Assembly: GCF_000718135.1 (NCBI RefSeq)
Contig: NZ_JOEM01000039.1
Span: 1-19,936 of the forward strand
Origin: Streptomyces cyaneofuscatus
GTDB taxonomy: Bacteria > Actinomycetota > Actinomycetes > Streptomycetales > Streptomycetaceae
Direction of reading: 5' to 3'
Length of the DNA: 19,936 nt
Shown here: positions 1,800 through 19,936 of the stretch, one piece after another
Layout: every line of letters starts with the position of its first letter
How positions within the stretch are numbered: position 1 is the stretch's first letter
Notes under the pieces: generated by a model
What the model was told of the DNA's origin: nothing
The model's database searches: none
What the model saw: the letters and a program-made list of their open reading frames with translations, nothing else
Made by a program: the position numbers and the translations under genes

Positions 1800-3765
1800 A
1801 CACATACCGGGCAGCCTGCTGCCCACCAAGGCGGCGGCGCTGCAGACCCTTCGGGCGATGAAGTCGGCCCACTTCGACGTCCCGGCGTTCGAAGTGGTGC
1901 CGCTCCCGCTCGGAGCCCCCGACCGTGAATGCGCGCGGGACTGTCTGCCGGTCCTGAAGTGGCCCTGCGTCAAGGAATTTCCCCCGCCCGGGGTGATCGC
2001 GGCCCGTTCGATCGTGCGGGCTGCTGTCGATCGGCTCGGTCTGGACGGACCGGTATGGCTGCGCACCAGCATGAGCCTGTCGGCGCGTTCGGAGGTCTCG
2101 TATCCGGGGGTGAACTACTCCTGGCGCTGCACCGGCCCCGACGGGCTGGCCCAGGGGCTGGAGGTGCTCGGCTCGGCCCTGGAGCGCCCGTACGTCCGCT
2201 GGTACCGCCACCGCTTCGGCGTGGACGTTCGACGTGAGGGGACCGAACTGATCGTTGGTGCAGCGGCGTCCGGCGACTTCTACGGGGTGGCCTACCTGCG
2301 GGACGGGCGAGCGGCGGTGGACCTCTACGAGGCCGCCCGCCTCCACCGTCAGGTCCGGTGTGCAGAGACCGACCCGGTCCGTATGGTCGGGGCTGGCGAC
2401 GACTGGGGGGACCTGCCGGGCGGTGGTGGTCTCCGCGCTGCCCTGCAGGAGATTCACGAGGCCCACAGCCGGTCCGGATCGATCACCGAGGTCGAGTTCT
2501 ACTGTTCTGAGGGAGTCCGCCCGACCGTCGTCCAGTACCGAACGGTGCCGATGCGCGGCGGTGATGACGGGGCACTGCTTCAACAGTGGCCACCCGGCCC
2601 GGCGAAGCTCATCGATTTTCGGCAGGTTCCCCGAGACCTAGGTCAAATTGCTTCCAGGCTGGCCGAGTTAGCCAAAGACGAGGATGCGGTGGCCGTGGTC
2701 CGGGACCTGGCGTTTCGGGAGTGCGATGCCTTCGCGCTCTACCTCGCAGCCGATCTGACGGGACTACCGGCGCCGCACTCGGTGCTCATCGTGCGCGACG
2801 GAACGTTGCCTCGCTCGCACTTCGCCAGCGTGCTGTGCGAGGACCCTGCGACCCGCCGGGTCGGGCAGCTCAAGGCTGACCGCGTGCCGCCGTCGGTCGT
2901 GGCCCGCTTCGAAGTCAGAGCACGGCACGGCACTCGAATCGACCTGGCACCTGGCCGGTCGCGAACTCACGTCTCAGAAGCAGAGGGAAAAACGACTGTG
3001 AACAATACGCACGTTTTCCAACGGACCGACGTGGCCGAGCGCTACGACCGCAGTCGGTTGCTCCCGGACCGTGCCGTCCAGGAGGTCCTCGACGTCATCG
3101 TCAAGGCCCTGGACGGGGCGAGCCCCGAACTGGTTGTCGACCTTGGTTGTGGCACCGGGCGGTTCCTAGCCCCACTGGCCAACACCCTGGCCGCGAAGGT
3201 GATCGGGGTGGAGCCGTCCGAGGCCATGCTCGCTGTGGCCGCTGGCAAGACTTACCCCGGTATTGAGTTGAGGCGGGGGGACGCCGAACACCTCCCGGTA
3301 CTGGACGACAGCGCGGGTCTAGTCTTCGCCTCGATGGTGCTGCACCACCTGCCGTCGCTGCCCATAGCCATGGGAGAGGTGGCTAGGGTCCTCCGTCCGG
3401 GCGGTGTGGCGGTGCTGCGCAACGCGACCCGGGAGACCCGGCCGAGCACGCCGCACGTCCGGTTCTTCCCCGAGGTGGAGGATCTCGACTGGCTGCGGAT
3501 ACCTTCCCGCGCGGAGGTGGCCGAGGCGGGTGTGCTCCACGGCCTGGTCCCGGCCGAGACGGTGACGCTCGCGCAGGAACACGCCGCCACCTATGGGGCG
3601 TACTACGAACGCATCGCCAGGCGGCCGCTGTCCGATCTGATCGCCATCTCCGATGAGGCCTTCGAACGCGGGCTGGAGCGGCTGTCCGCCCATTGCGCGG
3701 AGCGCTGGGACGACGGCCCAGTGGACATCCCGATCGACTTCATGGTGCTGCGGAAGGCGCTCTGA
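1792..3765 (+). CDS. PPDK/PEP-synthase-like ATP-binding domain fused to SAM methyltransferase
   Basis: 657 residues from GTG 1792, chosen because it overlaps the GNAT stop and places a PPDK-like N-terminus (LLPTKAAALQTL) at the start. The first ~395 residues resemble, in diverged form, the ATP-grasp domain of pyruvate phosphate dikinase, PEP synthase and rifampicin phosphotransferase: VWLRTSMSLSARSE for the usual AVRSSA-type loop, GDFYGVAYLRDG for the SGV-type strand, and VVQYRTVP for the LQVRPV-type end. No phosphohistidine or PEP domain follows. From about residue 403 there is a class I methyltransferase with motif I VVDLGCGTG (near residue 450) and a later VLRPGGVAVLR. An in-frame GTG at 2998, preceded by AGAGGG, could restart translation and make a separate methyltransferase. 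A TTA codon is at 2668-2670. The methyltransferase call is strong; the N-terminal assignment is moderate. Confidence 0.7.
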   Translation: MSEHIPGSLLPTKAAALQTLRAMKSAHFDVPAFEVVPLPLGAPDRECARDCLPVLKWPCVKEFPPPGVIAARSIVRAAVDRLGLDGPVWLRTSMSLSARSEVSYPGVNYSWRCTGPDGLAQGLEVLGSALERPYVRWYRHRFGVDVRREGTELIVGAAASGDFYGVAYLRDGRAAVDLYEAARLHRQVRCAETDPVRMVGAGDDWGDLPGGGGLRAALQEIHEAHSRSGSITEVEFYCSEGVRPTVVQYRTVPMRGGDDGALLQQWPPGPAKLIDFRQVPRDLGQIASRLAELAKDEDAVAVVRDLAFRECDAFALYLAADLTGLPAPHSVLIVRDGTLPRSHFASVLCEDPATRRVGQLKADRVPPSVVARFEVRARHGTRIDLAPGRSRTHVSEAEGKTTVNNTHVFQRTDVAERYDRSRLLPDRAVQEVLDVIVKALDGASPELVVDLGCGTGRFLAPLANTLAAKVIGVEPSEAMLAVAAGKTYPGIELRRGDAEHLPVLDDSAGLVFASMVLHHLPSLPIAMGEVARVLRPGGVAVLRNATRETRPSTPHVRFFPEVEDLDWLRIPSRAEVAEAGVLHGLVPAETVTLAQEHAATYGAYYERIARRPLSDLIAISDEAFERGLERLSAHCAERWDDGPVDIPIDFMVLRKAL

Positions 3766-7514: not shown

Positions 7515-8705
7515 TTGCTCGACCACCGCTTTGACCGCGAGTACGAAGAACTGCGGGGCACTGTCGAGCAGTTCGCCAACGACGTGGTGGCCCCGAAGAT
7601 CGGCGACTACTACGAGCAGAACGAGTTCCCGTACGAGATCGTCCGCGAGATGGGGCAGATGGGGCTGTTCGGGCTGCCCCTCCCCGAGGAGTACGGGGGC
7701 ATGGGTGGTGACTACTTCGCGCTCGGCCTGGTCCTGGAGGAGCTGGCCCGGGTGGACTCCTCGGTGGCGATTACGCTGGAGGCGGCGGTCTCTCTCGGCG
7801 CCATGCCGATCTACCGGTTCGGCACCGAGGAGCAGAAGCGGGAGTGGCTGCCGAAGTTAACGTCGGGCGAGTTGCTGGGAGCTTTCGGCCTGACCGAGCC
7901 GGAGGGCGGCTCGGACGCAGGCGCCACCCGGACCACGGCGCGCTATGACGAGGCCACCGACGAGTGGGTGATCAACGGTACCAAGTGCTTCATTACCAAC
8001 TCCGGTACCGAGATGACCGGTCTGGTCACGGTGACCGCACTGACCGAACCGATCGCTCGTTCGAGTGGAGGTGGTGCTGAGGTCGTGTCAAGCCGCGAGA
8101 TCTCCTCCATCATCGTTCCCACCGGTACCCCTGGCTTCACCGTCTCCCGCAAGTACTCCAAGGTCGGGTGGAACGCTTCCGACACCCGCGAACTGTCCTT
8201 CACCGACTGCCGGGTTCCAGCGGCCAACCTGCTCGGCACCCGAGGCCGCGGCTACGCCCAGTTTCTGCGCATACTCGACGAGGGGCGCATCGCCATCGCG
8301 GCCCTGGCCACCGGACTGGCCCAGGGCTGCGTCGACCAGTCCGTCAGCTACGCCGGCACCCGGCACGCCTTCGGGCGGCGGATCGGCGCCAATCAGGTCA
8401 TCCAGTTCAAGCTCGCCGACATGGAGATGCGCGCGCATATCTCCCGCCTGGCCTGGCGGGACGCGGCCTCCCGACTGATCTGCGGCGAGCCGTTCAAGAA
8501 GGAGGCCGCGATCGCCAAGCTGTACTCGTCCGAGGCCGCCGTCGACAACGCCCGTGAAGCCACTCAGATCCACGGCGGATACGGTTTCATGAACGAGTAC
8601 CCAGTCGCCCGCTTCTGGCGTGACTGCAAGATCCTGGAGATCGGAGAGGGCACCTCCGAGGTACAGCGCATGCTGATCGCAAGGGAGTTGGGCGTCAACT
8701 CCTGA
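7515..8705 (+). CDS. Acyl-CoA dehydrogenase with intact catalytic glutamate
   Basis: 396 residues from TTG 7515. A typical ACAD: GLTEPEGGSDAGATRT in the middle domain, INGTKCFITNSG, IHGGYGFMNEYPVARFWRD, and the C-terminal EIGEGTSEVQRMLIAREL whose first GTSE-adjacent Glu (about residue 378) is the usual catalytic base of short- and medium-chain enzymes. It oxidises an acyl thioester at the alpha-beta bond using FAD. It sits 76 bases after its paralogue, which lacks that residue, and three genes after the kinase, so it likely acts on the unit activated by the adenylation enzyme. A TTA codon is at 7857-7859. It is the last recognisable gene of the operon; only 115 bases separate its stop from the insertion sequence. 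Confidence 0.92.
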   Translation: MLDHRFDREYEELRGTVEQFANDVVAPKIGDYYEQNEFPYEIVREMGQMGLFGLPLPEEYGGMGGDYFALGLVLEELARVDSSVAITLEAAVSLGAMPIYRFGTEEQKREWLPKLTSGELLGAFGLTEPEGGSDAGATRTTARYDEATDEWVINGTKCFITNSGTEMTGLVTVTALTEPIARSSGGGAEVVSSREISSIIVPTGTPGFTVSRKYSKVGWNASDTRELSFTDCRVPAANLLGTRGRGYAQFLRILDEGRIAIAALATGLAQGCVDQSVSYAGTRHAFGRRIGANQVIQFKLADMEMRAHISRLAWRDAASRLICGEPFKKEAAIAKLYSSEAAVDNAREATQIHGGYGFMNEYPVARFWRDCKILEIGEGTSEVQRMLIARELGVNS

Positions 8706-8820
8706 TTTCGCGAGGGTGCGGTAGGGTTCCGCCGTCGCAAGTGAGGACCTCAGGAAAGCAGTCGCAGTCGAGCTGAACGCGCCCGCCGCACGTGGACGGG
8801 ACCGACGAGCACACCGTTCA

Positions 8821-8824
8821 CTAG
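8821..8824. repeat. Target site duplication (left copy), CTAG
   Basis: CTAG directly abuts the left inverted repeat of the insertion sequence, and an identical CTAG abuts the right one at 9729-9732. CTAG fits the YTAR target duplicated by IS5-group elements. The CTA of this copy also supplies, on the minus strand, the TAG stop for the transposase frame. Confidence 0.7.
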
Positions 8825-8844
8825 GTTCTGTCTGACAAAGGATC
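8825..8844 (+). repeat. IS terminal inverted repeat, left
   Basis: Twenty bases beginning GTTCTGTCTGAC; pairs with the reverse complement of 9709-9728 at 15 of 20 positions. Confidence 0.8.
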
Positions 8845-9358
8845 TTGGATGGGTTCGCGGAGCCAGAGGATGAGTGAGGCGAGGTGGACTCCGGCCTTGT
8901 AACGGGCGGCGAGTTTGTCGAAGCGGCTGGCGATCGCGCGGAACTGCTTGAGTCGGTTGAAGCAGCGTTCGACCACGTTGCGGGCCTTGTAGAGCTCGCG
9001 GCCTTCCCTCGCCGCAGGCGGTTGGCCTTCTGGTCCGCCCGCTCCGGGATCACCGCCCGGATGCCTCGCCCGCGCAGGACCTGGCGGATCGCCCGGGACG
9101 AGTACGCCTTGTCCGCGATGACCGCGTCGGGCCTGCGGCGGGGACGTCCGGCGCCGGTGCGGGGCACCCTCAGCTCGTCCATGACCGTCTCGAAGACGGT
9201 GGAGTCGTTGACGTTGCCCGGCGTGACGACGACGGCCAGGGGCAGGCCCCGGCCGTCGCAGGCGAGATGGATCTTCGTGGTCAGCCCGCCGCGGGACCGG
9301 CCGAGCGCCTGGTCAGCCGACGGATGTGCCGGATCTTCCAGTTCGTCCCCCGCCTCCG

Positions 9359-9367
9359 CCCCCTTTT
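9359..9367 (-). other. Candidate -1 programmed frameshift site in IS transposase
   Basis: On the minus strand AAAAGGGGG occurs where the orfA frame must pass to the orfB frame. Slipping back one base changes the reading from ARKRG to ARKKGAEAGDELEDP, which leads straight into GRSRGGLTTK. Frameshifted orfA-orfB transposases are known in several IS families; use of this site is inferred. Confidence 0.45.
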
Positions 9368-9708
9368 GCGGGCACCGGCGGCGTGCTGGTGGGCCCGGCT
9401 GATCGTGGAGTCGACCGACACGGTCCACTCCACGGCTCCGACGGAGTCGTCACGGACCTGGACCTGTTCGAGCAGACGGGCCCAGGTGCCGTCCGCTTCC
9501 CAGCGGGCGAACCGTTCATAGGCCGTCTGCCACGGCCCGTAGCGTTCCGGCAGGTCACGCCACGGAGCACCGGTCCGCAACCGCCACAACACCCCGTTGA
9601 TCACCTGCCGGTGATCCCGCCACGGCCGCCCACGACCGTCAACACCCGGCAACAACGGCGCTATCCGACCCCACGCCGCATCCGTCAGCTCACCACGACC
9701 CACCACAA

Positions 9709-10472: not shown

Positions 10473-10806
10473 GCGCGGGGTGAGCGGGCCATCCGACGAG
10501 GCGGGCGGCCCGCCCACACTCCAGAGCTATCCCCCCTTCGGTTCCGCCCCAGTGAAGGGCCAGCATCAGAGCCCTACCTTTTTCGCGAAGGGCCGTGACG
10601 TTGTCCCTAAAGGCAGAAGGCCCGGCTTCTCCACAGACGCCTGCGGGGACCCGGAGCACCAAGTGCTTGCCGGCGTCGGTGCTCCGAGGCCCCCGATTGG
10701 ACTCGGCTGGAGAAGCCCTCCAGGCCGCCCGTGGGGCCCTGTTCAGCTCCCCACACATCAAATGATGTAGCCCGTCTGAGGGGTCGTCCGGTACTCTGAA
10801 CTACGC
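10473..10806. other. Non-coding gap with several inverted repeats
   Basis: No convincing gene is seen on either strand. Four stem-forming repeats occur: CCCTTC/GAAGGG (10534-10539 with 10554-10559), AGAAG/CTTCT (10615-10619 with 10626-10630), a perfect 9-bp pair CGGAGCACC/GGTGCTCCG (10652-10660 with 10678-10686, 17-base loop) and CTGGAG/CTCCAG (10707-10712 with 10718-10723). None is followed by a T run. They could form an intergenic terminator cluster for the gene ending at 10472 or a structured RNA. Confidence 0.45.
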
Positions 10807-10884
10807 ATTGATTCGCATGAACGACACCTAGAAAAATTGAACATGGATGAGTAATTGATGCATCGCGGCAGCATGAGAATCAAT
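10807..10884. promoter_or_regulatory. Interrupted dyad with a third related copy (possible operator or iteron set)
   Basis: ATTGATTCGCATG (10807-10819) and CATGAGAATCAAT (10872-10884) form a 13-bp inverted pair with one mismatch, 52 bases apart. A third related word, ATTGATGCAT, lies at 10854-10863 in the direct orientation. The segment is clearly more A/T-rich than its surroundings and ends 24 bases before the gene at 10909. It could bind that gene's product or hold its promoter; no good -35/-10 pair stood out. Confidence 0.45.
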
Positions 10885-10908
10885 CCGTAGTTTTCAACAG
10901 GTATCGAT

Positions 10909-11982
10909 ATGCGCCCCAAGGATGGCATGGTCGACGCGCGCCTTGCACACCTTCAGACCCTTCGAACCCGCATGGTTGAGGGCGTCAATCAGGTCATGCG
11001 CCGGATCTGGGAGCAAGGACAGCAGCCCGCCTCCGTTCGGGTCCGCCAGGCCTTCTATCGGCTTGACGAGATGAGGACCCTGGAGGACGAGCGGAAGCCG
11101 CTTCCGAAAGAGCAGCAGCCGTTCGCGGCCCGGATGGTCACGCCTAAGGGACTCCAGCTCCGGCTCATGCTGACGATGCTCTACGCCGCGCAGTGCGCCG
11201 TGGGGCCAGGGAAGCAGTGGGACGCTCCCTACCTCGTGGAGTCGACGGCGAAGCACCCGGTGTCATGGATGAGCTTGTCGGCTTCGATCAGCCAACACGC
11301 CGGTCCTGGCATTCAGCTGGCGTCCGAGGACGTCAACCGCCGACGCCAGATCACGCAGGCCTTGAATACGCTGGAATCGATGGCGCTCGTGCGGGCCAAC
11401 ACCAGGCCTGGCCGCTTCAGCACTGGTCTGCAGCTGCTGTGCGAGAACGGGACCAGCACCGTCAGCTCGGCCATCCCTTACACCGCCGCCGGCGACACCG
11501 AGCCGTACATCGAGATCCCGATCGAGTTCTTCACCCGCGGCTGGGTGCACGTGCTCACCAACAGCGAGATCGCCGCCCTGCTCATGTGGTTCGACCGCCT
11601 CAAGTACACCGGCGCCGTGGTCGGCGCCGAGGAGAGCGAACCACTCACCATCACCTACGTCACCGGCGACGTGAGGCAGGGCCTTTACGGGTTGGGGCGG
11701 AAGGCATACGAGACACACCAAGCCCTCGACGCCTACCAGCTCCTCGACGTGATCAGGCCTGAGAAACGCTACGACTCCGGTAAGTGGGAGGGATATTCGC
11801 AGGGCGATTCGGATCTGCTGTGCCACCGCGTCTCTCTCGTCTCCGCCGGCTTCGACCGCGACGCGGGAGAGGTCGTGGAGGACGTTCTCAAGCGCCGGGA
11901 CACCGGCGGTTACTGGAGACGTCCCATGTTCAGTGCGCCGAAGCGCTTCGATCGCTTCCGCATGGTCTCCGCCGACGAGTAG
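10909..11982 (+). CDS. Hypothetical protein with possible winged-helix segments
   Basis: 357 residues from ATG 10909; the upstream ribosome site is weak (ACAGG). No family is recognised with confidence. The N-terminal part is rich in charged helices. Residues ~118-165 (MSLSASISQHAG, then RRRQITQALNTLE) and ~204-285 (EIPIEFFTRGW, then LTNSEIAALLMW and GRKAYETHQALDAYQLLDV) have the pattern of helix-turn-helix or winged-helix folds, in which a segment choosing helices is followed by a 'leader residue' strand. Proteins of this look in actinobacteria include replication initiators and DNA-binding proteins of mobile elements, but that is inference. The AT-rich repeat segment directly upstream would suit a DNA-binding role. 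Third-position G+C is high, as in normal host genes. Confidence 0.6.
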   Translation: MRPKDGMVDARLAHLQTLRTRMVEGVNQVMRRIWEQGQQPASVRVRQAFYRLDEMRTLEDERKPLPKEQQPFAARMVTPKGLQLRLMLTMLYAAQCAVGPGKQWDAPYLVESTAKHPVSWMSLSASISQHAGPGIQLASEDVNRRRQITQALNTLESMALVRANTRPGRFSTGLQLLCENGTSTVSSAIPYTAAGDTEPYIEIPIEFFTRGWVHVLTNSEIAALLMWFDRLKYTGAVVGAEESEPLTITYVTGDVRQGLYGLGRKAYETHQALDAYQLLDVIRPEKRYDSGKWEGYSQGDSDLLCHRVSLVSAGFDRDAGEVVEDVLKRRDTGGYWRRPMFSAPKRFDRFRMVSADE

Positions 11983-12741
11983 AGCGAGTGCCGAAGTGCG
12001 TTCGGCCCCCAAACGAGCGCGCCATGGCCGGAACCTACGCGGAACTTGCAGAGCAAGCCGGGACGTGAGGGCCGCCCTCGCGTTGCAGCGCTTCTGTACC
12101 AGCAGGGGCCATCATCGGCGACGTGGTCACCAGTGCCGCGATCTCCGGAATTCTGGCCCACGACCAGCGGAGCAAGCACCGCGCCACCGCTGCTGCGCCG
12201 CGAGCCGTTGAAGCGCCAGAGCCGGGCGACGCCCCGGAAGCCAAGTGCAACTGACTCCGGCCATGGCAAGACTCTCGCGCCGGAGAACGATCCGCCTTCT
12301 CGTGCCCCGGCGACCAGGGAGTACAGGATCAGCATGTTCGTGCTCACCAAGACCACGCGTGAGTCTGCCTCGGCTGACACTCGCAGAGAGCCGGTCCTGC
12401 CGCAGGTGTCGTGGATCTGTGCCTGTCACCGCAACGCAATGCCTTCGAAAGCTCCTGCTCGATGTCAGTGGTTTGCGAGATCATCATTGCGGCGTTCGGG
12501 TTCTGCCGGTAACGCTGGGAGGGGGGTTTGTTGGTGTGTTGCGGGGCGGCTGGTCTGGGGTGTTGCTGGTTCGCTGAGAGGTGGAATGGGCGGCTTGGGT
12601 AGGTAGGCGGAGGCTTCTGAGCTGGGGTTATGTGTTCTGTGCTGAGTGGGGCTGGGTGTGTTGTAGTTAGTTCTGGCGTGTAAAGGCCCGGTTGGTGTTT
12701 GTGCTGGTCAGGGCTGTTCTGCCTGTTCGGCGGGGGTGGTC
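11983..12741. other. Gap without a convincing intact gene
   Basis: About 760 bases. From ATG 12024 a frame gives 14 residues (MAGTYAELAEQAGT), stops at TGA 12066-12068, and continues in the same frame to TGA 12252-12254 with a plausible peptide (AIIGDVVTSAAISGILAHDQ), so a small gene may have been broken by a nonsense change. A different frame around 12255-12420 also looks weakly coding. From about 12510 the sequence becomes G/T-rich on the plus strand and lies just beyond the 3' end of the transposition operon; a transposon end could be here, but no matching terminal repeat was found by eye. Confidence 0.3.
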
Positions 12742-13809
12742 TTATCGGCCTTGGCGGGGGCGGTGTTGGGTTTCGGCGAGGTGGTCGAGGCGGATGGTGT
12801 CGAGGGTGGTTTTGGTGATGCGTTCGGTGCCGTCGTGGATGGCGGTGATGGCTGCTTGGCGGATGAGTCGGGTGAGGGATCCGATGCGGCCTGCGGTGCG
12901 CTGGTGGAGGTAGGGGGCGTGGCGTGGGAGGGTGCCGGGTTTGTGCTGCTGGAGGTCGAGGTGGTTTTCGATATCGGTGATGACGTCGCGGAAGGGTTCA
13001 CGTTTGCCGTGGCGGGCGGGGAGGGGGCCGCAGTCGACGAGGGTGGCGCGTCCGGCGAGTTGGGCGCCTCTCACGCCGGTGAAGAGGGGTGTGTCGGTGA
13101 CGTTGATGCCGGCGTAGACGAATGTCGCGGGGAGGCGTTCGCTGAGGTCTTTCAGGAGGTCGGCGGTTTGGGCGCCGGTGGTGGTGCGGGGGTTGAGGCG
13201 GTGGATCTCGTCGATCATCACGAGCTGGATGCCGGCCTGGGTGTAGGTGTGGCAGACGGCTTCGGTGATCTGGGTCTGGGTCATGCGGGCGGTGACGGGG
13301 ATGCCGAGGTAGCGGGCGAATTCGGTGGTAGCGGGCGAATTCGGTGATGAGGGTTTTCGCGGTCGCGCCGGGCGGGACCAGAACATACGCGACGGGCACT
13401 GAGGTGTGCGCTGTCCGGGTGGTGGCGGGTTTTTGCGGGTGTGGGCGAGGTGGCAGGTACGCCCGACGTTCAGGAGCGCGGTGGTCTTCCCGGCTGCGGC
13501 GGGTCCGGTGACGATGAGGGAGGGCCGTGCGGTGGTCTGCTGGTGGCGTCCGAGGATCATCAGGGTGCGGACCTGGGTGGCCAGGGTGTGGATGGCGGGG
13601 GTGCGGATGGTGACGAAGCTGGAGTGGTAGGCGAGGCGTTCCTCGGTACTGCGGGGCGGGTCGCCGGGCCGGGGAGGGACGACGGGGGCGGTGGTGGCGA
13701 AGCGGTGCCAGCCCTGCCAGGTGGTCAGCGGCCAGGACAACTCGGCTCCGCCGCTTTCGTCGGGACCGCCTTGTGTGCTGCTCGCGCTTGGCGGGCTCGG
13801 GTTCACCAT
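12742..13809 (-). CDS. TnsC/TniB-like AAA+ ATPase with an out-of-frame internal segment
   Basis: 355 residues from ATG 13809 to TAA 12742. Walker A GPAAAGKTT (residues 102-110) and Walker B LVMIDEIH (196-203) are clear, and the remainder (ATFVYAGINVTDTPLFTG, a C-terminal lid) fits the TniB/TnsC regulators of Tn7-like transposition, which control target choice and activate the DDE transposase. Residues ~136-161 (CPSRMFWSRPARP onwards) are not family-like; the neighbouring frame reads VPVAYVLVPPGATAKTLITE, the expected strand and helix. The frame is lost near 13401 by a one-base loss (or equivalent) and regained at a 19-bp tandem duplication (13308-13345). The protein is full length but lacks a core segment, so it is probably impaired. 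Its start overlaps the transposase stop by 7 bases. Confidence 0.85.
   Translation of the reverse strand: MVNPSPPSASSTQGGPDESGGAELSWPLTTWQGWHRFATTAPVVPPRPGDPPRSTEERLAYHSSFVTIRTPAIHTLATQVRTLMILGRHQQTTARPSLIVTGPAAAGKTTALLNVGRTCHLAHTRKNPPPPGQRTPQCPSRMFWSRPARPRKPSSPNSPATTEFARYLGIPVTARMTQTQITEAVCHTYTQAGIQLVMIDEIHRLNPRTTTGAQTADLLKDLSERLPATFVYAGINVTDTPLFTGVRGAQLAGRATLVDCGPLPARHGKREPFRDVITDIENHLDLQQHKPGTLPRHAPYLHQRTAGRIGSLTRLIRQAAITAIHDGTERITKTTLDTIRLDHLAETQHRPRQGR
13308..13345. repeat. 19-bp perfect tandem duplication inside the ATPase gene
   Basis: GGTAGCGGGCGAATTCGGT occurs twice head to tail (13308-13326 and 13327-13345). It duplicates the EFARY codons of the ATPase. Nineteen bases shift the frame by one, which offsets the earlier frame loss near 13401. 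Confidence 0.95.
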
Positions 13810-15914
13810 GTGTCGGCTTCCTCGTGCGCGTTGTAGAGCCCGAATCCGGTGGCCGGGGCGGGGCTGACGTCGTCGGGCAGGTTGTCGCGGTCGTCGATGC
13901 TGTCGTCGTTGCCTTCGTCGCCTTGCTGCGCCGGGCTGTCGGCGGGTGCTTCGGTGCCGTGGTCCCCATCGCGGGCTTCGGGGAGAGGGAGGTGAGCGGT
14001 GCGGGCCAGAAGTGCCTGCTCCGTTGTGGTGGCGTGGCCGCTGTGTACGCGGCGCATGAGCTGGTCGAGGGCGTCGGCGAGGCTTGCTTCGTGCTGCTCG
14101 TTGTCACCGTGGTTGCCGTCAACGGCCTGGGTGCGGATGTGTTGCCAGGTGCGTTCATCGAAGGGCCGGTGGACGTGGTCGCGGTGGATCCACGGGATCT
14201 CGGTGAGTTCACCGTCGGGGAGGCGGATCCAGATCTGGCGCACGTCGTGGGGGTTGTAGTGGATTTCCCATTTCCCGCCGCGGCCGGCGACGGGGGATGC
14301 CTGGCCGCGGTTCGGGGCGAGGAGGTCCGCGTCGTGGGTGCGGTGGTGGATGGTGATGCCGCCGGGGGTGATGGCCTGCCAGCGCACGGGGAGCAGTTCG
14401 AGGTAGTCGCGCCCGGTCAACGGGACGGGCACGTACCCGGCGACCGCGACAAGGACGGCCCACATCTGGTTCGGTGTGAGGGCCTTCCTGGGCATCATCG
14501 GGTGGCGCAGCCCTTCGTGGGGCCGGTGGTGGTAGTGCACCAGCCACTCATCGAGGAGGTCTTGGAGCTGGGCGACGCTGTAGCAGGCGTCTTTCTCGGT
14601 GTCGGGGCCGCGGCGGGTGACGTCGGATCCGGTGTAGCCGGGCAGGTGCTGGCAGAACAGGGCGTTGATGGAGCCGAAGGTGCGCTCGACGATGCCCTTC
14701 GCGGTGGGGGCGCGGGGCGGGGTCGGCTGGACACTGATGCCGAGGCTCTCGCAGGCGGTGGTGAACGCCCGGGAGATGAAGACTTTGCCGCGGTCGACGA
14801 CGATCGTCTCGGGCAGGACGACCGGCCGGGCCGCCGCACCGGCCAGGCGCTCGTCCAGCGTGGCCAGCCGCTGGTGGGGGAGTGCGCGGGCGTGGTCCAT
14901 GCGCAGGATGTCCGGCCAGGTCGGGCGGGCGGGGTGGGGGACGGCCATCTCCGCGAGCAGCAGGGCCGCGTCGACGGCTTTGGTCGCGCTGGGGCACAGC
15001 ACGGCGGTGAGGATGGCGCGGGTGGCGACGTCGACGGCGATGGTCAGCTCGGGCCGGGCCAGGTGCCCGTCGTCGAAGAGGGCCAGGACGTCCAGGCGGG
15101 TGGTGTCGATCTGGACCTGCTCGCCCAGCCGCAGCGCCATGGCGGGCGTGAAAGCCCGCCCCTCGACACTCGCGGGCACCTGCCTCACCGGACCGCTGGG
15201 CAGTTCGCCGGGGCGGGCGAGGGAGGTGACGAGCCGGTACAGCGTCGCCTGGGACGGAACGGGCACCGTACCGGGGCCATGCTGTTCCTGAAGGATCTGG
15301 TTGATGAGCGGGAACAGGCCGTTGATGGTGCCTTTGGAGCGCCCGCGCCGGCGGCGCAGCGCTTCACGGACGGCGGCGACGACCCGTTCGTCGGACCGCC
15401 CGGTGGGGCTGGAGGCACGGGTGGTGCGGTGGTCGAGGAGCCCCCACAGGCCCTGCTTGCGATAAGCGAGCCGCATGCGCTGTACCGTGGTGCGCGACAC
15501 CCGCCCGAACCCGAGCGCGGTCAGCTCCTCGGCCTTGGCCTGTTCCCGCTCGGCCAGCGTGTGCCTCTCTGGGTCGTACTGCTCCCGCACCGCTCCAGCA
15601 CTGCCGGGCCCGCCGGCAAGGCCGCATTCGACTTCCCTCACGTGCCGCTGCCAGGCCATGGCCTTCTCACGTGCCGCGGCGGGGGCGGTCTCGAACAGCC
15701 CCCACTGCGGGGCCGCCTGCGGGACATCGGCCCCGATGACGCTGAAGCCGGGATCGGCGAACAGGTACCCGGCGAGCACCGCCTCGCCGCCGCCGTCCGG
15801 GCCGACGAGGTGAATGGTCTGCCCGGACAGGGCGACCACCTGCCACTTCACACCGCGGAACCTGACCTGCACCCCGGCCTTCACCGATGGCCGGGCGTTG
15901 CGCCGCGCGGTCAC
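13803..15914 (-). CDS. TnsB/TniA-like DDE transposase (Mu transposase C-terminal type)
   Basis: 703 residues from GTG 15914, chosen because GGGAGGGG lies a few bases upstream and the GTG overlaps the preceding stop as GTGA; the frame is open further upstream. The N-terminal part has helix-turn-helix-like DNA-binding segments (VSRTTVQRMRLAYRKQG, then RSKGTINGLFPLINQ). The rve-type catalytic core shows QIDTT (Asp270), IVVDRGKVF (Asp374) and GIVERTFGSIN (Glu410), a D-D-35-E spacing as in TnsB, TniA and MuA. A beta-rich Mu C-terminal region follows (PVRWQAITPGGITIHHR), then an acidic tail (EGNDDSIDDRDNLPDD) that may contact the ATPase. This is the one core transposition gene without visible damage. 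Confidence 0.93.
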   Translation of the reverse strand: MTARRNARPSVKAGVQVRFRGVKWQVVALSGQTIHLVGPDGGGEAVLAGYLFADPGFSVIGADVPQAAPQWGLFETAPAAAREKAMAWQRHVREVECGLAGGPGSAGAVREQYDPERHTLAEREQAKAEELTALGFGRVSRTTVQRMRLAYRKQGLWGLLDHRTTRASSPTGRSDERVVAAVREALRRRRGRSKGTINGLFPLINQILQEQHGPGTVPVPSQATLYRLVTSLARPGELPSGPVRQVPASVEGRAFTPAMALRLGEQVQIDTTRLDVLALFDDGHLARPELTIAVDVATRAILTAVLCPSATKAVDAALLLAEMAVPHPARPTWPDILRMDHARALPHQRLATLDERLAGAAARPVVLPETIVVDRGKVFISRAFTTACESLGISVQPTPPRAPTAKGIVERTFGSINALFCQHLPGYTGSDVTRRGPDTEKDACYSVAQLQDLLDEWLVHYHHRPHEGLRHPMMPRKALTPNQMWAVLVAVAGYVPVPLTGRDYLELLPVRWQAITPGGITIHHRTHDADLLAPNRGQASPVAGRGGKWEIHYNPHDVRQIWIRLPDGELTEIPWIHRDHVHRPFDERTWQHIRTQAVDGNHGDNEQHEASLADALDQLMRRVHSGHATTTEQALLARTAHLPLPEARDGDHGTEAPADSPAQQGDEGNDDSIDDRDNLPDDVSPAPATGFGLYNAHEEADTW

Positions 15915-16752
15915 CGAGCCCCTCCCACAGTGTCCGGACCAGGGCCGTTCCAGCCCGCGGGACCGACCAGGACGCGTTCGTGCAGCGGTGTCTCCAGGTC
16001 TGCTGTCACCTGCCCGTGCCATAGGGCGTGGAAGACCACCGGCAGGACCTCGATCGGGTCACCGGCTGCTTCGACGCCCTCGATCAGCGGCCGCGGCCGC
16101 GCGAACGCCTCCACCGCCGCAGGTGTCAGGCCTGGGCGGCCGGCGTTGCGGGGGTGGCGGTAGCCGGCCAGCCATTTCAGATTGGCGGCCAGGGCGTCGT
16201 CGAGCGGCGCAAGACGCCGGTAGGCCCAGCCGATCTCCTCACACGCCGCGCTCACCGCTTCGGCGGCCTTCACCGCCCGGTCGCCACCGGCCTCCGGGTG
16301 GCTGGGGCAGTCGGCCAGCAGACCCGTGCCGTCGCGGTACCGGGCGAACAGCTGCGGCACCCAGGAACGCACCCGCCCCCGCTCCTCGCGCCACAGCAAC
16401 CGCACCGGACGCCCCGGGTCACATCCGGGTCGCGGTCCAGGACCATCAGCTGGGTGCGCATCGCGTTCGAACCCGCGGCCACGTGCCGCCCGGTGGTCGC
16501 CGACCACCACAACCCCGGCCCCCACCGGCGCCCCGGGATCACCGGGAACGCCGACACCGGCCGCAACTCCTCGAATGCCACGGTCATGGCGGCATCCGCC
16601 CACCGCTGCTGAACCGACTGCCCCACCGGATCGAGGAACACCGCCTCGAACCCACTGCGACGATCCACGGCCACTCGCCTCGCCCGGCCCCCAGGCCGGG
16701 CGGCCTCTCCTGTGCTGATCACCCGCGTCAGCCAAGCCGCTCCCGCCGACAA
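15911..16752 (-). pseudogene. TnsA-like transposase endonuclease subunit, frameshifted
   Basis: The N-terminal frame (from TTG 16752, or more likely GTG 16674 giving VAVDRRSGFEAVF) reads to LDRDPDVTRG. The continuation is in another frame: PVRLLWREERGRVRSWVPQL, then FARYRDGTGLLADC, EIGWAYRRL and NLKWLAGYRHPRN. This is the pattern of TnsA-like heteromeric transposase endonucleases, which cut the 5' ends so that Tn7-type elements leave by cut and paste. Adding one G to the G4 run (C4 at 16412-16415 on the plus strand) joins the frames as TRGRPVRLLW, giving 254 residues from GTG 16674. A Glu in GFEAVF and an Asp in LLADC are candidate catalytic residues, though the usual following basic residue is not seen. 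The stop overlaps the transposase start as GTGA. Confidence 0.75.
16412..16415 (-). other. Frameshift point in TnsA-like gene (G-run one base short)
   Basis: A run of four G on the minus strand; five would restore a continuous reading frame through TRGRPVRLL. It could be a true deletion, a slippage site or a homopolymer error. Confidence 0.6.
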
Positions 16753-16831
16753 GCATCGTCGTTTTCAGGGTTTCTGCCACAAACGAGTGCCGTATCAGCT
16801 AACAGGCGATGAGCCAGGTCCCACCTTGCTC

Positions 16832-18371
16832 TCAGCCGTCCTCTTCCTGACTACCTGCCCTCAGCATGCTCCTCAGTGTCCCGGGGGACATATCCGCCCA
16901 CCGGGCCACCTCCTCCAACGGCACCCCGCCGTTCACCGCCGCCACCGCGGTCCGCTTCCAGGCCGCCTCGACCAGACCGGCACTGCGACCGAGGCCCTGC
17001 AGCAGCTGCCAGGCGACCTCGGCGGTCGGCCCGCTCTGCACGCCGTGCAGCTGCAGCAACTGCTCCTCGGCACTACCGAGGAGACTGCCTATCCGCATCC
17101 GCTGCTCAGCCGGCACCACCGCCCGCCACATCGTCCCCGAACCGGGGTCCTTCTTCTCCTTGCCCAGCACCCGCAACTGCCCCGCCATCGTCACCGACTG
17201 ATGCTCCCGGCGCAGCCACCAGGGGGCGTTGTCATATCCCGGGGGCCCACCGGCCCCACGGCGCAGCCGGATCACGCTGCCCATCCACGCGATCAGCGGA
17301 CCGCCATGGTCCGCCGCAGCCAACGGCCCCATCCACTCCCGCCCCACCCGCTCACCGAGCCGACGGCAGAACAGCCCGTCAACGGGCAACGCTTGCGGCT
17401 GCCCGGCACCGCTGTCCACCCACACCAACTGGGCCATGCCCGGATCCAGCAACGCGTCGGCCACGGCCACCACCTCGGGAAAGACCACCGCGTCCCGCCC
17501 CACGATCCGCCACCACTCCAGATCGCCCCCGGCATCACCGCCCGCGACCCGATGCAACTGCCGCGGCCAGACCTTCTCCCGCTCCCACTGCAGCGCCTGC
17601 TCCCACCACCGGGCCACCACCGCCTGCGCCAGCGCGAACACCCGCTCCGGCTCGGCCCCCGCCCGCACCGCCCGCCGCGCCACCCCCGCCCAACGCAACC
17701 GCGCCGCGACCACCTCCGGCAGACGCCGCACGTCCAGATACTCGTGAGGCTGGTCGGCATCCGCATCAAGGAGCCACCGCCCGTGCCGGACACACACACG
17801 GTCCCACCGCGGGGCATACAGCACCGCCCGCCCAGCCGTCCCCGTACGCCGGGCCGTGCACAGACGACAGCCGAACGCCACCGGCCCGGCAACCGCACCA
17901 CCGATCCGCCACGCCGCCGCCGGCTCCCCGGCATCCGCGGCCGGCAGCCTGGCATCCTCCCGCCCCCCAGGACGGCAACGCCCGCGCCAGCACACCCTCC
18001 TCGACGCCGGACAGGCCTGCCAGGAGCCGCCGTCCAGCCGTGTTCAACAGCACCTCGGCATCTGCCCGCCCGCCCCCTCCGTCGTGCCGAGGCTGGTGGC
18101 TGCGCCACTTCCAGCAAGACCGCAACGCCGTCGCTTCCAGTCCGTAGCGGCTGGCGACGCGGCAGATCAGCGACGACGTCGTCTCTCTGTTCAAGGGAGC
18201 GGTACGTAGGAGGCCGGGAGGAAGGATCACTCCACCACGGTCTCGTGTTCGCCGTCCCTGGCGCGCACTTTCGGAACGGATGCCCAGCGGATGAAGCAAA
18301 CCGCAGATCCACGCGGGGCGGCTGTGGAGGGCGGACCCCTTGCCGCCGGGAAGTAGTTGGGCCTCCGTCAT
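16832..18371 (-). pseudogene. TniQ-family targeting protein, frameshifted
   Basis: The first frame starts at ATG 18371 (overlapping the upstream stop as ATGA) or at GTG 18230, from which VILPPGLLRTAPLNRETTSS resembles the TniQ N-terminus, and runs to ARALPSWG. The second frame continues with GREDARLPAAD and a zinc-finger-like C-x2-C (FGCRLC, Cys codons at 17869-17867 and 17860-17858) and C-x2-H (RVCVRHGRW). The C-terminal half ends in a helix-turn-helix-like segment (VPLEEVARWADMSPGTLRSML). Removing one G from the G6 run (C6 at 17963-17968 on the plus strand) joins the frames and gives 465 or 512 residues. TniQ proteins recognise the target site and recruit the AAA+ protein and transposase in Tn7/Tn5053-type elements. 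The family call is fairly sure; the exact start is not. Confidence 0.7.
17963..17968 (-). other. Frameshift point in TniQ-like gene (G-run one base long)
   Basis: Six G in a row on the minus strand; five would restore the frame as PSWGREDARLP. This run is long enough for replication slippage or a sequencing length error. Confidence 0.6.
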
Positions 18372-19726
18372 CGTGATGTCTTTCCGGGGCGGAGGAGTCG
18401 TAGCAGAGCGCGCCAGGTGAACCGCGGATGGGAACCGGACTCCTGGATAGGGGCGACTTGTGCCCGCTGAGGCAGTGGTGGCCCATCGGCCGGGGGTGGC
18501 TGTACCGCTTGTGGGGCCTGCTCGGGCGCGCGATGTACCGCCGAAGCTTTGATGGGCGCCAGGGCGGGGGCGGGTTGAGATGACGGATGTGGCGACGAGG
18601 CTTCGGTAGGCGCAGACGCGGTGGCTACGGCTGTGGTTTCTGGCTTCGGCCGTTGGGCGTGTTCGCGGGCGAGGCGGCGCCGGTGGGCTTCGCGGCCCTT
18701 CTGGGCCTTTTCCAGGGCGTGCATCACCTGGAATGCGGGTGCTGGTCGGAATCCGGTGTGAGCTCCGAAGGTGAGCAGGGGCAGCGGGACCAGGCCCCAC
18801 CAGGCGGCGCTGTCGGCCGGGTAGGGGTGGGAGATTTTCCAGTCCTTCGCCCATGAGGCCATCTCGCCGCTCCAGTCCTCCCCGTCGTGGGCGGGGTAGG
18901 TACCGGGGTGGCCGCCGTAGGGGATGAGGACGGTGTCCTTCGCGATCCAGCACACGGCGGCACCGTTGTGGACGAGCTGCCGTTGGGCGGGAGTGGGGCG
19001 CACCTTGGGGTGGGTGTCCGGTGTGCCGTGGGGGCGGATCTTGACGGTGCCGGCGCTGAGGTACTGCTGGGTGTCGTCGCGGTCGAAGAACCACCAGTGC
19101 GCCGTGCGCTCGCCGTAGGTGGCGCGCACGTGCTGCCGGCGGGTTTCGGCGGTCGTTTTGGTCAGCGGGCGGCGAGGGCGTTCGACGACGACGGCCTGGT
19201 CGCCCTGGTGGATGACGAGGGCTGGAGGCAGCGTCCAGCGCTGTCCGGCGAGCTGGGGTTGGGCTGTCAGGGAGATGACCGTCCCGGGCAGGGCGCGGGC
19301 CAGCCGCTCGCGGAGGTCGAGGACGGTGGTGAGGTCGCTCTGGATGTCGGCCTGGTGAGGTGCAGGGGCCGTGCACCGGTCGGTGCCAGGGCTTCCCGGG
19401 TGGCGGAAGCGGGGGGTGAATGCCGAGTCGGGGGTGGCCGGCCCGGTGAAGATCAGGGCGTTGCCGCAGGCGCAGCACCGGTAGCGTCCGCCGGCCCTGC
19501 CCCGGGGAAGACGGTTCGCGGCGTCGGGCTCGCGGGACAGGTCGATGATCCGTCCGTGATCGCCGGTGTCGATGGCGAGTTCACTCATGCGGGGCAGCTT
19601 GCTCGGCGTACGGGGGGAGCGGGAGCGCTGGGTGGGCGGGACCAGTTGGAGGGGGCCGGCGGTGCGCGGGGAGGAGTGGAGGGTGCGGGGGCGGGCTGTC
19701 TGGGCGGGGAGGGCCTGGTGCGTCAT
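18368..19726 (-). CDS. CoiA-like protein (zinc finger plus possible nuclease domain)
   Basis: 452 residues from ATG 19726, which has GGAGAAG seven bases upstream; an in-frame GTG at 19783 is a weaker alternative. After an ~80-residue low-complexity N-terminus comes YRCCACGNALIF (Cys84/Cys85/Cys87), RFRHPG (His109) and RCTAP (Cys118), the zinc-binding arrangement of CoiA-like proteins. A segment with QAVVVERPRRPLTK (Glu182), then RTAHWWFFDRDD, matches the position of the restriction-endonuclease-like fold in that family. A WWGLVPLPLLTF motif precedes a Pro/Ala-rich tail (about 360-430) and a basic end (TWRALLRLLRPGKTSR). CoiA proteins take part in DNA processing during transformation in Firmicutes; the role here is unknown. 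The gene heads the transposition operon and overlaps the TniQ-like start as ATGA. Confidence 0.65.
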   Translation of the reverse strand: MTHQALPAQTARPRTLHSSPRTAGPLQLVPPTQRSRSPRTPSKLPRMSELAIDTGDHGRIIDLSREPDAANRLPRGRAGGRYRCCACGNALIFTGPATPDSAFTPRFRHPGSPGTDRCTAPAPHQADIQSDLTTVLDLRERLARALPGTVISLTAQPQLAGQRWTLPPALVIHQGDQAVVVERPRRPLTKTTAETRRQHVRATYGERTAHWWFFDRDDTQQYLSAGTVKIRPHGTPDTHPKVRPTPAQRQLVHNGAAVCWIAKDTVLIPYGGHPGTYPAHDGEDWSGEMASWAKDWKISHPYPADSAAWWGLVPLPLLTFGAHTGFRPAPAFQVMHALEKAQKGREAHRRRLAREHAQRPKPETTAVATASAPTEASSPHPSSQPAPALAPIKASAVHRAPEQAPQAVQPPPADGPPLPQRAQVAPIQESGSHPRFTWRALLRLLRPGKTSR

Positions 19727-19936
19727 GAACGTCTTCTCCGGTGGTCGGGGTATGCGGGCCGGGGTGGTAGAAGAGTTGCCCACTGCTGTTTGTCCCTGAC
19801 GCTGTCCACCGCATCACCGCAGGTGAAGTAGAGACATTGAACCGCTCCGGGATCGGTGGAGGCTCTATGCGTTGACTCCAGCCGCCGGTTGGGGCTGGTG
19901 TTGAGCGTAGTGGTTGGTCTCGTGCTCGTGGGGCGG
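19727..19936. other. Sequence upstream of the transposition operon
   Basis: Two hundred bases up to the window edge. The operon promoter must lie here or beyond, but no promoter pair was recognised. No transposon end repeat was recognised either, so the element may continue outside the window. Confidence 0.4.

Follow-up and report, generated by a model that had tools for sequence, protein, structure and literature searches.

A decayed Tn7-like operon of Streptomyces cyaneofuscatus, very probably from a telomeric transposon family whose TnsA has lost its active-site residues

The window, meaning the whole stretch of DNA that was analysed, is the complete contig NZ_JOEM01000039.1 (19936 bp) from a source genome of 7.9 Mb in 126 contigs. 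On its minus strand, at 12742-18371, lies the tniQ-tnsA-tnsB-tnsC operon of a Tn7-like element, with the following features in and around it.

10645..12509, no strand assigned: host DNA flanking the insertion site, subtelomeric elsewhere in Streptomyces (matches in G189, G138, G168, G082 and G075)
12510..12741, minus strand: specific transposon end (similarity stop in 23 of 79 loci, common terminal sequence, one copy in the window)
12742..13809, minus strand: tnsC, TniB-type AAA+ (PF05621, 7e-9; intact relatives; out-of-frame block near 13320-13415)
13803..16022, minus strand: tnsB, DDE transposase (PF00665, 3e-8; open frame; D306, D410, E446)
15911..16764, minus strand: tnsA (NCBIfam NF033179 match in two frames, plus alignments; broken near 16400)
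16832..18371, minus strand: tniQ (PADLOC TniQ plus alignment with intact relatives; broken near 17960)
18368..19726, minus strand: CoiA-like gene (frame open to 19783; adjoins tniQ)
19837..19936, no strand assigned: end of an IS3-family insertion sequence (the same ~100 bp ends contig C3)

The four core genes are backed by profile searches and by alignment with the intact genes of relatives, which bears out the initial annotation of an actinobacterial Tn7-like TnsABC set with TniQ. Among the profile searches that it had proposed, those for TnsB (PF00665), TnsC (PF05621) and TnsA (NF033179) found their targets, TnsA with both family membership and fold, but the CoiA-like protein of the window gave no Pfam match at E values up to 0.05. 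TniQ profile scores are weak, the window piece reaching E 0.003 with PADLOC and two intact relatives scoring 20.0 and 21.6 bits against PF06527 (cut-off 27). The start of tnsB is likely the GTG at 15914. Start/stop overlaps join the genes of the operon as originally described, except that there is none between tniQ and tnsA. Two further Tns operons, on contigs C5 and C10 of the source genome, have a catalytic-type TnsA. The earlier view that RNA-guided targeting is not indicated stands, and an RNA-guided element is unsupported: the window has no Rfam match, no regularly spaced short repeats appear among the 20 repeat families listed, of at least 60, for 11500-19936, and no cas gene was seen in the part of the ORFs that was searched.

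Frame lesions had been noted in three core genes and are present in the sequence: tniQ carries one frame change, tnsA is split over two frames, and tnsC exits its frame and returns. The sole core gene open throughout is tnsB, whose three acidic residues are intact. The window copy is probably inactive. It is less likely, though far from negligible, that the lesions are sequencing errors in an intact copy; the tnsC block leaves the frame for ~90 bp and then comes back, as two indel errors would give, and the assembly, in its 126 contigs, is a draft, but three of the four core genes are hit by breaks, the six plus-strand flank genes with Pfam matches are open (judged without comparison to relatives), and an IS3 insertion adjoins the operon.

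Comparison with homologous operons, proposed at the outset as the way to find the ends of the element, located one specific end at 12510. Similarity from the operon leftwards (blastn) stops at window positions 12505-12512 in 23 of 79 named loci, these representing the best 80 of 103 TnsB relatives. The end (5'-TAACGCTGGGAGGGGGG) has 5'-TAACGCTGGGAGGGGGGTTTGTTGGTGTG as its outermost bases on the plus strand, and in most loci the outermost sequence, read outward, is ...ACACCAACAAACCCCCCTCC(C/G)AGCGT(T/C)A, with small variants. In five of the stopping loci (L068, L070, L073, L076 and L078) the contig itself ends exactly at the motif, as expected if the end bounds a terminal repeat; L075 runs into Ns at the element end, and the others continue with differing sequence over the stretches shown (up to 40 bp). 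With eight mismatches allowed, the 29-base end is present once in the window and, among 12 stretches of relatives, once in seven, as a tandem pair in L064 and not at all in four; the double end of L064 was discounted, its join containing an N. Of 19 readable ends, 8 (the window's included) are followed by CC as the first two flanking bases, a possible target preference.

The position of the junction was defined by an empty site, sought in 295 Streptomyces genomes with the flank at 10800-12509 as query and then aligned. Genomes G189, G138 and G082 match the flank to 12509, and G168 to 12508, before continuing without the element, and thus 12509 is the last base of host DNA and 12510 the first of the element. 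Beyond this point ~1.1 kb is common to G189, G168 and G082, with G138 sharing the first bases only. In G189 (C1, 9.12 Mb) the empty-site point is 4.9 kb away from either contig end, within terminal repeats of at least 14 kb, and the flank is matched at both chromosome ends, at 92% over 10645-12148 and 91% over 12424-12509, 12149-12423 being missing. The matches in G138, G168 and G082 are shorter, and G075 matches 10650-12008 at both chromosome ends, 3.4 kb from each. The element of the window sits in DNA whose counterpart in another genome (G189) is subtelomeric. By this comparison the biosynthetic genes to the left of 12510 are host DNA outside the element, which is read as one-ended, with its end at 12510, and not as an ordinary transposon with two ends. 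The window has only one junction, so that a target duplication is unreadable. The telomere-side DNA that follows the empty site in G189 is absent from the window, and a search for such DNA elsewhere in the source genome returned just 64-71% helicase similarity on contig C7 and a 35-bp stretch at 89%. A partial DDE transposase domain (PF01609) at 8088-9428 on the minus strand is an insertion-sequence remnant within the host flank.

Relatives of the element are concentrated at replicon ends. In plasmid records (TnsA identity 58-95%; the first 33 of 127 records, at our cut-off of at least 58%) 32 of 33 relatives are no more than 21 kb from a record end against 8.0 expected, and 27 of 28 do so against 3.2 expected in records of at least 100 kb. 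Catalytic-type Streptomyces records (22 within the first 53 of 213 records) show no such excess, with 4 of 22 within 21 kb against 3.6 expected or, set beside the 27 of 28, 3 of 21 against 2.6. The two types differ in end location with a Fisher p of 9e-10, class having been assigned by nearest relative and residues read in 9 of the 33 window-type and 1 of the 22 catalytic-type records. In 29 of 33 plasmid records the element is oriented as its nearest end would require. Exceptions in location are a copy in Streptomyces nigrescens, 142 kb away from the record end, and a CB01881 copy 306 kb from the end. In a Kitasatospora aureofaciens plasmid (L188:15253-21364) the tnsC side faces the record end, contrary to the family rule.

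Comparison of the two ends of single replicons defines the extent of the repeated unit. Both ends of the S. longwoodensis plasmid CP107736 are 100% identical over 14329 bp, the identity reaching the final base of the end motif. In strain NBC_00984 the two ends of plasmid 1 match over ~9.2 kb, to 1-2 bases past the motif, and then diverge, and a terminus of plasmid 2 agrees with the plasmid 1 ends to the same point before likewise diverging. The two ends of plasmid 2 itself agree for at least 20 kb, past the element end, the terminal repeat of S. clavifer extends ~2.1 kb beyond the motif, and end agreement in NBC_01650 halts ~270 bp before it; repeats that do not stop at the motif could reflect later recombination between ends. 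Judged from these alignments, the mobile unit is the stretch from telomere to end, that is, a telomeric transposon, with the telomere as second boundary seen in two related strains. Hsieh and colleagues reportedly described, in 2025, telomeric transposons at Streptomyces replicon ends that have one specific end, the telomere as second boundary, and tip replacement; the window family resembles these in outline. The window very probably holds a decayed member of such a telomeric Tn7-like family, in which, by comparison, the order runs from the specific end at 12510 through tnsC-tnsB-tnsA-tniQ to a variable cargo zone that in relatives leads to the replicon end. In the window this zone is cut short: the contig stops 153 bp past the CoiA frame, inside the IS3-family copy, and its last 200 bp, which close in that copy, show no sign of a telomere and no unusual fold (z -0.5).

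The flanks also retain traces of lost tips. A match to the telomeric helicase lies within 2.5 kb in 6 of 27 flanks, and in five of these it begins inside the protein (residue 530-817), at most 86 bp from the junction, the telomere-side part being gone; in the sixth the helicase is complete, and the other 21 flanks, the window's included, have no helicase within 2.5 kb. A chromosome contig of S. fulvorobeus carries one element at both ends (99.96% across 2.5 kb, reaching position 2516 of L133), and on one side the next base falls in the tnsC of another element with its own end at 3629. This inner element is missing its telomere-side genes and would be the older. A helicase near the tip is known from the TtrA-type terminal regions of Streptomyces telomeres (PMC8743542), and in relatives of the window element a helicase gene that encodes HA domains and lies close to the replicon tip likewise reads inward. 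It is a neighbour and not part of the element, and in the window it is the CoiA-like gene that stands next to tniQ.

That CoiA-like gene had been placed at the head of the operon, but its distribution does not support a conserved place there: similarity occurs in 1 of the 79 loci from the best 80 of 103 TnsB relatives, as a 126-bp remnant, and in none of 20 further loci, though several loci hold little DNA upstream of tniQ. From this pattern the gene is best read as variable cargo rather than core. Of four relatives searched at E up to 1, three have no Pfam match and the fourth matches DUF7830 only, at 0.14; modelling points to a nuclease-like fold, and no E-x-K is invariant in the alignment. 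Most relatives whose source is named come from Streptomyces, and 34 plasmid records hold a relative, some distant from any end. A 93% relative from S. cyaneofuscatus (L141:18501-19907) lies near a plasmid end, ~3 kb from a different tnsABC set and on its telomere side; the TnsA residues of that set are also replaced, and the two families may exchange telomere-side cargo. Other loci carry, between helicase and tniQ, a Gabija system (HUAS CX7, L174:4633-8240; GajA 3e-226, GajB 1e-242) or E1-E2, JAB and patatin genes (NBC_01220, L173:10868-15799), defence-type cargo that lies telomere-ward of tniQ.

A further property of the family concerns TnsA. Alignments place M, Q and P in the window protein at the positions of the active-site E, D and basic (K/R) residues, and the same three are replaced across its TnsA clade, one member (L040) retaining the D; in a conventional two-ended relative in the genus they are present. 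The alignment comprises 100 open frames (>170 aa, match >80 aa), not de-duplicated and including the same or near-identical pairs L036/L115, L037/L038, L042/L043 and L180/L182, and the tree 84 of these. Selection on the residue-less TnsA is purifying, with a median omega of 0.235 over 66 pairs, beside 0.241 over 15 for TnsB (L067 left out for a stop in the chosen frame). Compared by sequence with solved structures, the TnsA and TniQ clade profiles found no relevant match, and a catalytic-class TnsA profile matched CAST TnsA at E 0.003. Cut-and-paste transposition, as first supposed, is thus doubtful, the window and its clade being without the TnsA catalytic residues. Their replacement while selection keeps the protein predicts replicative copying of telomeres, and the loss in close relatives suggests that chromosome ends are copied, not cut and pasted. 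A TnsA-fold protein of a telomeric clade with E, D and basic residues replaced, yet kept by selection, is new as far as could be checked; a literature search, most subscription papers lying outside its reach, found no report of catalytic loss in a telomeric TnsA.

These observations bear on whether the element could be a conventional Tn7-like transposon that moves by cut and paste and has two ends, the second of them outside the contig. This is very improbable: the full tnsABC-tniQ set is present and a related operon in the genus is two-ended (TGT..ACA ends, 5-bp duplications), but no inverted pair of the 29-base end occurs among the 12 stretches of relatives, telomere-to-end units are common to replicon ends in two strains, and the TnsA catalytic residues are lost. 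The conventional 6.0-kb element present twice in G025 has the order tnsA-B-C-tniQ, two ends, 5-bp duplications and E/D/R kept, whereas the window element differs from it and from Tn7 in having tniQ first, one end and M/Q/P.

For the telomeric family, transfer would begin when TnsB, together with TnsC and TniQ, joins the specific end by its 3' strand to a second linear replicon, within the terminal or subtelomeric DNA. The inner arm of this target replicon would gain the element and its telomere and lose the old tip. Less surely, the donor would keep its own copy, as TnsA would be unable to cut 5' strands, and the transfer would be completed by replication that starts at the target and passes through the element as far as the telomere. 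We tentatively propose, with slightly less than even confidence, that TnsA without its endonuclease is kept as a scaffold, that transposition is replicative and one-ended, with telomeres copied between replicons while the donor keeps its own, and that it was by losing TnsA cutting that a cut-and-paste element with two ends became a telomere copier. TnsB acts without TnsA 5' cutting in type V-K CAST and in the Vch TnsA D90A mutant, where cointegrates make up >85% and >95% of reads, respectively (PMC8188705). By analogy the window family may likewise give cointegrates; it differs from those systems in retaining the TnsA protein and losing the residues alone, and in having no CRISPR.

Purifying selection on the residue-less TnsA (the median omega given above) and the frequent proximity of the gene set to a telomeric helicase would also suit a domesticated telomere-maintenance or end-exchange function that no longer transposes. 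This is improbable, if somewhat less so than a hidden second end, as the window TnsB retains D-D-E, and telomere-to-end copies on two plasmids of one strain, with sharp junctions in differing flanks, indicate movement.

Streptomyces telomeres turn over rapidly and are exchanged between chromosomes and linear plasmids (PMC7205883). The telomeric family, for which junctions are resolved to the base, an empty site is at hand and older elements are seen truncated, gives such exchange a concrete agent, and the joint loss of the TnsA active site and the second end would be a simple, testable reason for these elements to copy whole chromosome tips. Genes adjoining such ends should be treated with caution, in that they may be target DNA and not cargo.

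Some relatives have rearranged core genes. In two genomes tnsB is interrupted near residue 495, by a ~6 kb insert with two phage-integrase-family genes in L040:9146-15052 and by a ~9.7 kb insert that repeats residues 448-495 in L052:7710-17382; tnsB may hold an integration site. G022 (L037:1924-12566) has two tandem tnsB genes, of 55% and 43% identity to that of the window, and its tnsC is in parts that lie several kb from each other; L138 has two tnsC genes.
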